Part shown: piece after piece, positions 22,900-33,053 of the stretch
How the letters are laid out: each line of letters begins with the position of its first letter
Numbering within the stretch: position 1 is the first letter of the stretch
DNA from: Pseudomonas sp. DC1.2
GTDB taxonomy: Bacteria > Pseudomonadota > Gammaproteobacteria > Pseudomonadales > Pseudomonadaceae
Assembly: GCF_034351645.1 (NCBI RefSeq)
Contig: NZ_CP133782.1
Location: forward strand, 4,593,001 to 4,657,000
Direction: 5' to 3'
DNA length: 64,000 bases
Made by a program: the position numbers and the translations under genes
Notes under the pieces: model-generated
What the model was told of the DNA's origin: nothing
Database searches by the model: none
The model's input: only the letters and a program-made list of their open reading frames with translations

Positions 22900-22950
22900 T
22901 ATACCAAAAAACAATATTGTACAGGTTTAAAGCACGGCGTAATCTGTACA
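22900..22950 (+). promoter_or_regulatory. Probable LitR-type operator and promoter before the renalase-like gene
   Basis: TATACC-N12-TGTACA at 22900-22923 differs by one base from the two perfect copies before the photolyase operon. A further TGTACA lies at 22945-22950. A possible promoter overlaps: TTGTAC (22917-22922), 17 bases, TAATCT (22940-22945). The divergent hemH operon shares this region. Confidence 0.6.
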
Positions 22951-22970
22951 TAAAGGTAAACGAGGCCCCT

Positions 22971-23957
22971 ATGACTGTACCAATCGCAATCATCGGCACC
23001 GGCATTGCCGGACTTTCCGCCGCCCAAGCCCTTACAGAGGCCGGGCATGCCGTTCAACTCTTCGATAAAAGCCGTGGCAGCGGCGGGCGTATGTCGAGCA
23101 AACGCAGCGATGCGGGCGCTCTGGACATGGGCGCGCAGTATTTTACTGCACGCGATCGGCGCTTTGTCACCGAGGTCCAACGCTGGCAAGCCAACGGCTG
23201 GGTCGCGGAGTGGACGCCGCAGCTCTACACCTTCCAGGGCGGGCAGCTGAATCTATCGCCGGACGAGCAGACACGCTGGGTTGGCACACCACGCATGAGC
23301 GCCATCACTCGCGGCCTGCTCGGCGACCTGGAAGCGCACTTCGCCTGCCGCATCACCGAAGTCTATCGCGGTGAAGAGCACTGGCATTTGCAGGACGCCG
23401 ACGGTTTCACCCACGGCCCTTTCAGCCACGTCGTGATCGCGACTCCGGCGCCTCAAGCAACCGCACTGCTGGCGGCAGCGCCAAAACTTGCCGGGGCCGC
23501 CGCCGGGGTAAAAATGGACCCGACCTGGGCCATCGCCCTGGCCTTCGACAAACCATTGGATACGCCCATGGAAGGCTGCTTCGTGCAAGACAGCCCCCTC
23601 GACTGGCTGGCCCGCAACCGCAGCAAGCCAGGGCGCGACAATCGACTCGACACGTGGGTGCTACACGCCACCAGCGCCTGGAGTCGCCAACATATCGACC
23701 TGCCAAAAGAAGCGGTGATTGAACAGTTGCACGGCGCCTTCGCCGAGCTGCTGCACAGCGCAATGCCGGCGCCCACCTTCAGCCTTGCTCATCGCTGGCT
23801 CTACGCTCGCCCGGCCAGCAGCCATGAATGGGGCGCGCTGGCGGACGCCGACCTGGGTTTGTACGTGTGTGGCGACTGGTGCCTGTCCGGGCGTGTAGAA
23901 GGCGCTTGGCTCAGTGGCCAGGAAGCCGCTCGCCGCTTACACGAGCACTTACAGTGA
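22971..23957 (+). CDS. Renalase-like FAD-dependent oxidoreductase
   Basis: A 328-residue flavoprotein with the dinucleotide motif [10 protein letters not shown] (about 9-18) and the GGRMSSKR segment near 37 typical of renalase/amine-oxidase-like NAD(P)H-FAD proteins. Bacterial renalases re-oxidise unusual isomers of NADH; the role here is not proved. The ATG at 22971 is chosen over an upstream in-frame start because the latter runs through the promoter. The small Trp-rich gene overlaps its stop codon. The operator upstream puts it in the inferred light regulon. Confidence 0.82.
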
Positions 23958-24169
23958 ATCGCGTTAATCCGGCAAAACTGCTGCTGTCAAAATGGACGGC
24001 AGCCCAACCGCAAAACCGTGAAAAGCATTTCCTGGTCACTGAGCTGTTTCGCGATGAGGAAGGCACGGTGCTGGAAGTCGAGTTGCAGGCGGTATTGACC
24101 CAACGCACAGAGCGAATGGCCTGGCAAACCTTGAAAAACAGCGACACCTGGTTGTTGGGCTGGAAGTAA
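23954..24169 (+). CDS. TIGR02450 family small Trp-rich protein
   Basis: 71 residues starting (GTG) [20 protein letters not shown], the family opening with SKWTA, and ending [13 protein letters not shown]. The GTG start at 23954 overlaps the stop codon of the flavoprotein gene (GTGA), indicating translational coupling. The family is unknown in function and often lies beside photolyase or cryptochrome genes, as here. Confidence 0.82.
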
Positions 24170-24225
24170 ACCCAGGGGAAGCACGCGTGTTTTCGCAAAG
24201 GATTTAACGCTTCTCGAGAAAAACC

Positions 24226-30940: not shown

Positions 30941-32198
30941 TGTTACGGCAAAAGCCAATCTGATAAGCGCCAACGGATTGACCGGGTCGCTGCTTCGGCG
31001 CGGCGTGCTGCGTCAGTTGGCGCATCTCAAGCATGGGCAACTGGTGGTCATCGAAGACGGCGAACGGCATGTGTTTGGCACGCCTGGCAGTCATCTCACG
31101 GGGGAGATCCATATCCTTGATGCCGCCGCCTGGGGCTTGGTCGCCAGCAGCGGCTCAATCGGCGCCGGCGAGGCGTTCATCCATGGTTACTGGAGTTCGC
31201 CGGACCTGACCGCGGTGGTCCGCGTGTTTGTGAGCAACCTGGAGGTGCTGGATGCGCTGGAAGGCGGTCTGGCAAAACTCACGCGCCCCTTCGTTCAAGG
31301 CCTGCACTGGCTCAACCGCAACACCCGAAAGGGCTCGCAGAAAAATATTGCGGCGCACTACGACCTGGGCAACGACTTGTTCGAACAGTTTCTGGACCCG
31401 ACCATGATGTATTCGGCGGCGCAATTCCTTAGCCCCGAGGACAGCCTGGAGCAAGCACAACTGAACAAACTGGAACGGATCTGCCAGAAACTTGCGCTGA
31501 AACCCAGCGATCACTTGCTGGAAATCGGCACCGGCTGGGGCAGCATGGCGCTCTACGCGGCGCAGCACTATGGCTGCAAAGTCACCACGACCACGCTGTC
31601 CAAAGAGCAGTTCGCCTTCACCGCAAAGCGCATCGAAGCCCTCGGCCTACAGGATCAGGTCACGTTGCTGCTGTCGGATTACCGCGACCTCACCGGCCAG
31701 TACGACAAACTGGTGTCGATCGAGATGATCGAGGCGGTGGGTCATCGCTTCCTGCCAACGTACTTCAAGCAATGCGCGCATTTGCTCAAAAGCAACGGTT
31801 TGATGCTGTTGCAGGCAATCACCATCCGCGAACAGCGTTACGAACAAGCCAAAACCAATGTCGACTTTATCCAGCGCTACATCTTCCCCGGCGGCGCCCT
31901 GCCCTGTGTGCAAAAGATGCTGGAAGTTGTCAGCCGCGACACCGACATGAACCTGCTGCACATGGAGGACTTCGGCCTGCACTACGCGCGGACGCTGCGC
32001 CTGTGGCATGAGAATTTTCGCCATGCGCACAGTCGCTTGACTGAGTTGGGCTACGACGACTACTTCCTGCGGCTGTGGGAGTTTTACCTGTGCTACTGCG
32101 AAGGCGGCTTCCTTGAGCGCACCATCGGTACGGCGCAATTGCTGCTGGCCAAACCTTGCGCAATGCCGGCGCCATTGCTTGGCCGCTTCGATGCTTGA
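30927..32198 (+). CDS. Cyclopropane-fatty-acyl-phospholipid synthase-like methyltransferase
   Basis: 423 residues. SAM motif LLEIGTGWGSMAL at about 195-207; the family's YDLGNDLFEQFLDP at about 147-160 and MMYSAAQF follow the usual CFA order. CFA synthases methylate the double bond of phospholipid acyl chains. The setting fits either CFA synthesis or a UfaM-type methylase. The start at 30927 follows AAAGGATC and lies in the end of the DUF1365 gene; longer readings lack a ribosome site. Confidence 0.9.
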   Translation: MKSSSVTAKANLISANGLTGSLLRRGVLRQLAHLKHGQLVVIEDGERHVFGTPGSHLTGEIHILDAAAWGLVASSGSIGAGEAFIHGYWSSPDLTAVVRVFVSNLEVLDALEGGLAKLTRPFVQGLHWLNRNTRKGSQKNIAAHYDLGNDLFEQFLDPTMMYSAAQFLSPEDSLEQAQLNKLERICQKLALKPSDHLLEIGTGWGSMALYAAQHYGCKVTTTTLSKEQFAFTAKRIEALGLQDQVTLLLSDYRDLTGQYDKLVSIEMIEAVGHRFLPTYFKQCAHLLKSNGLMLLQAITIREQRYEQAKTNVDFIQRYIFPGGALPCVQKMLEVVSRDTDMNLLHMEDFGLHYARTLRLWHENFRHAHSRLTELGYDDYFLRLWEFYLCYCEGGFLERTIGTAQLLLAKPCAMPAPLLGRFDA

Positions 32199-32694
32199 AC
32201 GTCTGGCCAACGCCGTGCTGTTTCAGCTCGGCTGGTTTGCCTGCGTGGCGGGCGGCGACAGCCTGTGGCTGTTGGTAGCGCTGGCAGCACTGGTGATTCA
32301 TTTGCTGTGGATAAGTCATTGGGCCGATGAAGGCCGGCTGATTCTCAGCGTAGTGTTGCTCGGCACCACCGTGGACAGCTCATTGCGCTGGCTGGGTGTT
32401 TTCGAGTTCGCGGACGTCTCGCCCTTGATTCCGCTGTGGCTTATGTTGCTGTGGGCACTACTGGCAACCACCTTGCGCCACTGCTTGCAGTGGAGCGCCA
32501 GCCCTTGGTGGCTGGCCAGCGTACTGGGTGCCGTGGGTGGAGCGGTATCGTATTACGCCGGTGGAAAACTGGCAGGCGTTCAATTCCCCTACGGCCAGGC
32601 ACCGACGCTGATCGGCATCGCACTGCTCTGGGCCTTGCTGTTTCCGGCCCTCCACTTCATGGCCCAACGGCTGGCGACGGACACCCGAGACTAA
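32191..32694 (+). CDS. DUF2878 family membrane protein
   Basis: 167 residues with five or six hydrophobic helices, starting MLERLANAVLFQLGWFACV. DUF2878 proteins commonly end operons of this kind. No catalytic residues are assigned. The start overlaps the methyltransferase stop by 8 bases, so it is translationally coupled. Confidence 0.82.
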   Translation: MLERLANAVLFQLGWFACVAGGDSLWLLVALAALVIHLLWISHWADEGRLILSVVLLGTTVDSSLRWLGVFEFADVSPLIPLWLMLLWALLATTLRHCLQWSASPWWLASVLGAVGGAVSYYAGGKLAGVQFPYGQAPTLIGIALLWALLFPALHFMAQRLATDTRD

Positions 32695-32747
32695 ACGTCT
32701 GTCAGGCCTTTCACACAGCATCGATCCACTGCCTTACACTGCGCGCC

Positions 32748-33053
32748 ATGAAAACCATTCCCCACACGCAAATCGCTGATCCGGCGGTCACGTGCTCGAC
32801 CTGTTCCGCCTGCTGCTGTCAGCTCGAAGTCATGCTGATCACCGACACGGGCGTGCCCGATCGTTTTATCGATACCGATGACTGGGGCGGGGAAGTCATG
32901 CTGCGCCTGGATGACGGCTGGTGCGCCGCGCTGGATCGCAACACGATGATGTGTACCATCTACGAAAAACGACCGCTGATCTGCCGGGAATTCGCCACGG
33001 GTTCGCCGGAGTGCATGGAAGAGCGCCAAGGCATCACGTCGGTGTACCGATAA
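32748..33053 (+). CDS. YkgJ family cysteine-cluster protein
   Basis: 101 residues with Cys clusters CSTCSACCCQLE (about 15-26), WCAALD, MCTIYEKRPLICREF, the pattern of the zinc/iron-chelating YkgJ family. It begins 53 bases after the DUF2878 gene and may be the last gene of the operon or separately transcribed. Function unknown; a metal-binding role is inferred. Confidence 0.85.
   Translation: MKTIPHTQIADPAVTCSTCSACCCQLEVMLITDTGVPDRFIDTDDWGGEVMLRLDDGWCAALDRNTMMCTIYEKRPLICREFATGSPECMEERQGITSVYR

Follow-up and report, generated by a model that had tools for sequence, protein, structure and literature searches.

The window analyzed here, a 64,000-nucleotide stretch of Pseudomonas sp. DC1.2 (NZ_CP133782.1, positions 4,593,001 to 4,657,000, from a 5.82-Mb genome in a single contig), contains nine head-to-tail plus-strand genes at 24323 to 32694, with rudS first and a DUF2878 gene last. 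The best explanation, held with high confidence, identifies the locus as a Pseudomonas LitR1 light operon, organized as two modules under one switch. Comparison with relatives suggests a near-constant core (rudS-litR1-phrB-sdr, flanked by a renalase gene that has an operator of its own) and a furan fatty acid block that can be dispensed with, which comprises ufaD-ufaO-ufaM-DUF2878, the NTF2-like gene and probably also the upstream DUF2389 gene. Accounts of this system have been published for Pseudomonas mendocina and, by cited text, for Pseudomonas putida. The findings on modular loss, accessory proteins, and the renalase operator are added here; no literature text on them was found within a scope that ended short of the full P. 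putida paper and the supplements.

The original prediction, made from the letters and a list of open reading frames, described an operon of overlapping or adjoining genes with a YbgA-like head, a LitR-like regulator, a photolyase, and lipid genes. All of the named genes were found, in that order and on the plus strand. The full order is rudS, litR1, phrB, NTF2-like, short-chain dehydrogenase (SDR), ufaD-like, ufaO (DUF1365), ufaM, and DUF2878, and each junction from rudS through DUF2878 has either 0 bases or an overlap of 1 to 14 bases. A separate upstream unit (22971 to 24169), made up of renalase and a 71-residue Trp-rich DUF2389 protein, ends 153 bases 5' of rudS. The features are as follows.

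22900..22923, plus strand: LitR-type operator before renalase (TATACC-N12-TGTACA, one mismatch), from the consensus scan and conserved in relatives.
22971..23957, plus strand: renalase-like flavin adenine dinucleotide (FAD) protein, matching over its full length the solved chains 4zcc ("Renalase"; E 5e-183) and 3kkj (E 2e-181).
23954..24169, plus strand: Trp-rich protein of 71 residues, DUF2389/TIGR02450 (PF09493 and TIGR02450, matched on the longer frame 23828-24166).
24226..24249, plus strand: operator site 1 (TATACA-N12-TGTACA), an exact consensus match overlapping the -35 hexamer.
24238..24265, plus strand: sigma-70 promoter TTGACT-N16-TATGAT, from the promoter scan, matching P. mendocina P6650 in hexamers and spacing.
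24277..24300, plus strand: operator site 2 (TGTACA-N12-TGTACA), an exact consensus match.
24323..25282, plus strand: rudS, TudS-DUF1722 tRNA 4-thiouridine desulfidase as predicted from PF04463, PF08349, and key residues; earlier called YbgA-like.
25283..26224, plus strand: litR1, class II LitR (MerR helix-turn-helix and B12-binding_2 only), from Pfam and alignment to solved CarH.
26224..27690, plus strand: phrB, DNA photolyase (NF007955 above its cut-off; PF03441 and PF00875).
27677..28105, plus strand: NTF2/SnoaL-like protein (PF12680), predicted furan fatty acid accessory from its loss pattern.
28102..28884, plus strand: SDR (PF00106), kept with the light core by its loss pattern.
28881..30128, plus strand: ufaD-like FAD flavoprotein (PF01593), fatty acyl desaturase by homology, from identity to ufaO-adjacent flavoproteins.
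30125..30940, plus strand: ufaO, DUF1365 (PF07103), O2-dependent furan-forming enzyme by homology (PMC7380195).
30927..32198, plus strand: ufaM, CMAS-type S-adenosylmethionine methyltransferase (PF02353) with its start at ATG 30927, below the cyclopropane-synthase cut-offs.
32191..32694, plus strand: DUF2878 membrane protein (PF11086) with three hydrophobic peaks, at the operon end.

The light operator described for P. mendocina is T(G/A)TACA-N12-TGTA(C/T)A (PMC9758184). Operators of this PplR/PmlR type lie at the rudS promoter: the window contains two exact matches to TRTACA-N12-TGTAYA, both 5' of rudS (0.00 expected by shuffling), and three sites when up to one mismatch is allowed (0.04 expected), the third of which precedes renalase. 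Across the whole genome there were 6 exact sites versus 0 for the reversed control, and 17 versus 11 when one mismatch was allowed, so that a one-mismatch site alone is weak evidence. The scan of 22750-24400 gave one sigma-70-like promoter, TTGACT-N16-TATGAT, against 0.5 expected from shuffled sequence. The light-inducible P6650 promoter of P. mendocina has these hexamers with this spacing and operators of this type; its site 1 shares bases with the -35 hexamer, and site 2 lies between the start site and the start codon (PMC9758184). Conservation was examined in named loci (the best 80 of 335), the nearest of which are from Pseudomonas, including P. frederiksbergensis, P. mandelii, and P. fluorescens; this set may lack the records closest to the window. 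All 80 of these relatives have one or more exact sites 5' of rudS, 77/80 have a second site at no more than one mismatch, and 57/80 carry the exact promoter string.

In P. mendocina, the nine genes PME6650 to PME6610 respond alike to blue light in transcriptome sequencing, and quantitative PCR gave induction of 27- to 33-fold for phrB and 25- to 33-fold for ufaM (PMC9758184). Light induction has also been reported for P. putida (Sumi et al. 2020, as cited in PMC9758184 and PMC11417400). The PmlR1/PplR1 operon of these two species shares with the window nine overlapping or adjoining genes, the order of LitR, photolyase, SDR, FAD protein, and UfaM, the promoter hexamers and their spacing, the paired operators, and a separate LitR2-LOV-fol locus; pmlR1, phrB, the SDR, the FAD protein, and ufaM are named in the P. 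mendocina unit, and the other four genes are matched by position only (PMC9758184). The window differs in having a variant operator before renalase-DUF2389. The light regulon proposed in the original prediction is borne out to this extent, and a blue-light response of the window operon is supported by analogy with the strongly induced P. mendocina operon.

Pfam found only MerR models and PF02607 (B12-binding_2) in the litR1 product, and solved CarH aligns to LitR1 only across residues 24 to 178. Judged by its domains, LitR1 is a class II LitR, that is, a helix-turn-helix and a helical bundle with no C-terminal cobalamin-binding domain found. The classical adenosylcobalamin-sensing class I LitR/CarH was rejected as an assignment because neither Pfam nor the CarH alignment found the cobalamin domain. 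Elsewhere in the same genome, at 969 to 974 kb, LitR2 is encoded together with a 148-residue short LOV protein containing a CRFLQ cysteine and with folM-, folE-, and folX-like genes; a short LOV protein encoded near a LitR paralogue is the arrangement expected for class II, and the locus matches the gene setting described for P. mendocina pmlR2 (PMC9758184). Illuminated short LOV protein (PmSB-LOV) of that species binds PmlR2 and inhibits its DNA binding in vitro; a gel shift in the same study gave a stable light complex on DNA instead, which its authors set aside (PMC9758184). The LitR-like identity given by the original prediction holds, and the class II nature and the LOV switching known in relatives had been missed. 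By analogy, we infer that in the dark a class II LitR (LitR1 and/or LitR2) would sit on both of the direct-repeat operators that overlie the rudS promoter. Once activated by blue light, the short LOV protein would bind LitR and remove it from DNA, and the nine genes could then be transcribed.

The position of the YbgA-like head gene was correct, and its identity can be refined to RudS, a predicted tRNA 4-thiouridine desulfidase. The product is a TudS-DUF1722 fusion, and all seven key residues reported for RudS_KT, catalytic and iron-sulfur residues among them, are conserved at an offset of 2. RudS_KT (P. putida PP_0741) strips 4-thiouridine, whose sulfur is light-sensitive, from tRNA, and the proposed purpose of this removal in relatives is to limit near-UV cross-linking (PMC11417400/PMC11014904). 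With the same fusion, the same seven residues, and no difference seen between the two proteins, window RudS is predicted to have the same activity. RudS would thus limit near-UV cross-linking of tRNA, while PhrB would repair pyrimidine dimers.

UfaM, UfaD, and UfaO, the last a DUF1365 protein, turn vaccenoyl chains into furan fatty acid in Rhodobacter sphaeroides and Rhodopseudomonas palustris (PMC7380195). Homologues of all three are encoded in the window, with ufaD and ufaO adjacent as in those species, an assignment made by homology and not by direct comparison with the R. sphaeroides proteins. Twenty regions of other classes were hand-picked from the 153 genomes in which a UfaO homologue occurs. 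All 20 have a ufaD homologue next to ufaO, 41 to 55% identical to the window ufaD-like protein, and ufaM homologues (one weak, at 29%), photolyases, and NTF2-like genes are found close by in 16, 6, and 4 of them, respectively. The R. sphaeroides ufa genes answer to singlet oxygen (chrR), whereas the window has LitR-type operators; unlike the Rhodobacter pathway, the window furan genes are accompanied by NTF2, DUF2878, and nearby DUF2389. On the alphaproteobacterial model, UfaM would methylate cis-vaccenoyl phospholipid chains, UfaD would desaturate the product, and UfaO with O2 would form the furan ring, so that a furan fatty acid is probably the end product here. The acyl-chain methylation and furan chemistry of the original prediction agrees with the homology to these established enzymes; its statement that the roles of the DUF genes were not established overlooked DUF1365, which already has a function as UfaO. 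No mention of DUF2878 was found in the literature among the matches listed.

Among the 80 named loci, with presence scored at the locus itself and a gene counted as intact at 90% or more of its length without a stop, the core was nearly constant: rudS was intact in 80, litR1 in 80, phrB in 78, and the SDR gene in 76. The lipid-side genes were intact in far fewer (ufaO in 46, ufaD in 48, ufaM in 45, DUF2878 in 44, NTF2 in 40, and DUF2389 in 47), and the furan block was missing from 34/80. Comparing loci with and without ufaO, NTF2 was intact in 40/46 versus 0/34, ufaM in 45/46 versus 0/34, and DUF2389 in 43/46 versus 4/34; the corresponding values were 46/46 versus 30/34 for the SDR gene and 44/46 versus 32/34 for renalase. 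The co-lost genes are not contiguous (DUF2389 lies 5' of rudS, NTF2 between phrB and the SDR gene, and the other furan genes after the SDR gene), so their joint loss with the SDR gene retained would take more than one deletion event. Several loci hold partial remnants of NTF2, ufaD, and DUF2389, which suggest that the ufaO changes are losses. On a tree of six neighboring proteins of the same 80 loci, which recombination may blur, the state of ufaO changes at least 11 times; of nine independent pairs, NTF2 changes together with ufaO in 7 to 9 and against it in none (median p 0.008), and the SDR gene changes with it in only 0 to 2. The NTF2-like protein is therefore likely to serve the furan pathway, a service by DUF2389 is plausible, and the SDR appears not to serve it; the original prediction had grouped the SDR with the methyltransferase genes, from which these losses separate it.

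Two other accounts of the lipid genes were weighed. The methyltransferase could be an ordinary cyclopropane synthase, with the operon stabilizing membranes and the flavoprotein and DUF1365 doing something else. The protein does belong to the CMAS family, and its best solved relatives are named cyclopropane synthases; however, it scored only 282 of 400, 281 of 600, and 245 of 650 bits against three cyclopropane-synthase models, below their curated cut-offs (which can miss true members), and it is kept and lost with ufaD and ufaO, which together make this account improbable. A closer contest is the view that NTF2 and DUF2389 disappear together with the furan genes because the locus as a whole erodes or whole variants recombine, with no function in common. 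The losses cluster in clades, the named loci are closely related to one another, and after tree correction the association of DUF2389 is not significant. Erosion would have to spare the SDR, phrB, litR1, rudS, and renalase genes in between, which are mostly kept, the SDR gene separating NTF2 from ufaD; remnants of varied extent indicate separate erosion events, and DUF2389 genomes are enriched for clear UfaO homologues (counts below, kinship not removed). We consider this account a serious possibility that falls somewhat short of even standing. The proposal that NTF2-like, DUF2878, and DUF2389 are dedicated, dispensable partners of UfaM-UfaD-UfaO, and that renalase belongs to the core of the LitR regulon, is likewise put forward tentatively. 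If true, the partners might, for example, hand over the methylated diene, assist ring closure, or serve as membrane anchors. With the lipid half lost repeatedly and the protection of DNA and tRNA retained, furan lipid chemistry would be the conditional part of this light defense. The testable predictions are a part for the NTF2-like and DUF2389 families in furan fatty acid synthesis and light regulation of renalase.

The renalase operator admits two readings, both of which may hold: it may make renalase part of the regulon, or, without serving renalase, it may act as a read-through block that keeps transcripts begun at the renalase promoter from running on into the light operon in the dark. 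In the 78/78 named loci with renalase and upstream sequence, the operator occurs at exactly one mismatch, of the type TATACC-N12-TGTACA, with a TGTACC variant in 4. A second comparison used 57 genus genomes, all with DUF2389 and including the window's own (30 automatic best matches and 27 hand-picked), of which 54 have renalase in the segment retrieved. Where the light cluster adjoins, 47/50 genomes have a site with no more than one mismatch within 150 bases of renalase (the misses being G001, G069, and G113; in G043 the site is at a different position); where the light cluster is elsewhere, 0/4 do (G013, G028, G487, and G502). This pattern, present where the units adjoin and absent where they are apart, favors a read-through block, as does a sense-strand scan for terminator-like structures between DUF2389 and rudS, which found only the operator palindrome itself. 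Against a block that does not serve renalase, this half-site variant (TATACC, or GGTATA in the opposite orientation) also precedes folM of P. mendocina, which is light induced 2.4-fold and whose promoter is bound by PmlR2 (PMC9758184). The two readings are compatible with each other. On balance, a site that acts as a block and does nothing for renalase seems rather unlikely. The original prediction had both upstream genes sharing the operator type; one operator precedes renalase, and none was found within 150 bases before the Trp-rich gene, whose GTG start, read from the sequence and the same in relatives, overlaps the renalase stop by 4 bases. Renalase oxidizes mis-reduced NAD(P)H isomers, and membership in the regulon would tie repair of these isomers to light stress. 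The solved chains 4zcc and 3kkj presumably come from Pseudomonas.

Several observations weigh against the two-module light operon as drawn here. Within the 80 loci, there is a slight SDR-ufaO association (Fisher p 0.03), NTF2 is not intact in six loci having the furan block, three furan-block loci (L272, L274, and L285) are without intact DUF2389, and four block-less loci (L294, L299, L304, and L305) keep it. The tree-corrected test for DUF2389 was not significant, with about 4 of 9 pairs changing in the same direction, 0 or 1 in the opposite direction, and 4 or 5 unchanged. No experiment placing renalase or DUF2389 in the light regulon was found in the literature consulted, nor any literature combining renalase, Pseudomonas, and photolyase. 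Furan synthesis in R. sphaeroides needs only ufaM, ufaD, and ufaO, and RSP1087, RSP1088, and RSP1089 are dispensable for it (PMC7380195). Accessories therefore cannot be essential there. We take RSP1087 to be an SDR. Finally, PP_0738-PP_0742 rose in a P. putida co-culture at unchanged illumination, which the authors credit to another stress (PMC11417400/PMC11014904). Since this orthologous region rises without a change in illumination, light may not be the only signal. We assume, from its number only, that PP_0742 is the DUF2389 gene.

Beyond the genus, DUF2389 is present in 37/398 Pseudomonadota genomes, of which 35/37 have a clear UfaO homologue, 1 a weak one (G471), and 1 none (G413), compared with 153/398 genomes overall; kinship was not removed from this comparison. 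A genus-level Fisher test gave p 5e-6, a value that rests on reading the group codes g1 to g92 as class and that counts g2 and g4, whose match is in different genomes or weak. A search for DUF2389 homologues (best 120 of 1530) returned close relatives throughout. In the 27 non-genus DUF2389 loci, matches to the light genes of the window genome were sought within about 8 kb (tblastn, E 1e-4): ufaO was absent near DUF2389 in all 27, and only 3 (L125, L131, and L142) are near a light gene. DUF2389 as a general light-operon gene is thus unsupported, and its link to UfaO outside the genus is co-occurrence in genomes. No literature on TIGR02450 or DUF2389 was found. One of the three loci (L142, 4796-8206), from another gammaproteobacterial family, has rudS-phrB-NTF2-DUF2878-DUF2389 homologues together with no ufaD-ufaO-ufaM in 16 kb; its genome (G355) carries a UfaO homologue elsewhere.

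The other four of the six exact operator sites in the genome, which have A+T-rich spacers, precede three methyl-accepting chemotaxis protein (MCP) genes and one GAF-GGDEF-EAL gene (L063 3145-3168, L064 3399-3422, L065 2900-2923, and L066 3770-3793). They reflect either a light link to motility and cyclic di-GMP or another regulator with a similar site. Among 30 MCP loci taken from 39 domain matches, an exact site was present in L198 and L211, and a third lies just outside the L186 stretch; a search of 18 relatives at E 1e-150 gave no match to the 601-residue PAS-MCP. In other Pseudomonas, 20 exact-site loci were hand-chosen from the matches listed, and 8/21 of their sites fall inside long open reading frames. 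Pfam-matched flanks of these loci include RudS or DUF1722, the DPRP photolyase-related family, DUF3833, renalase-like, LitR-like MerR, cupin, a response regulator, and one MCP. One locus in another Pseudomonas (L231, 2470-3070) has an exact operator 5' of a DUF3833 gene.

The range of the original prediction, 22900 to 33053, covers the operon proper and also takes in units that are separate from it, namely, the renalase/Trp-rich pair and a CxxCxxCC gene (PF03692) at 32748-33053, which lies beyond a 53-base gap after the operon and closes that range. Farther downstream, a minus-strand gene at 33168-33686 stands beside the operon in 79/80 named loci; it resembles what we take to be the outer-membrane lipid A deacylase PagL.

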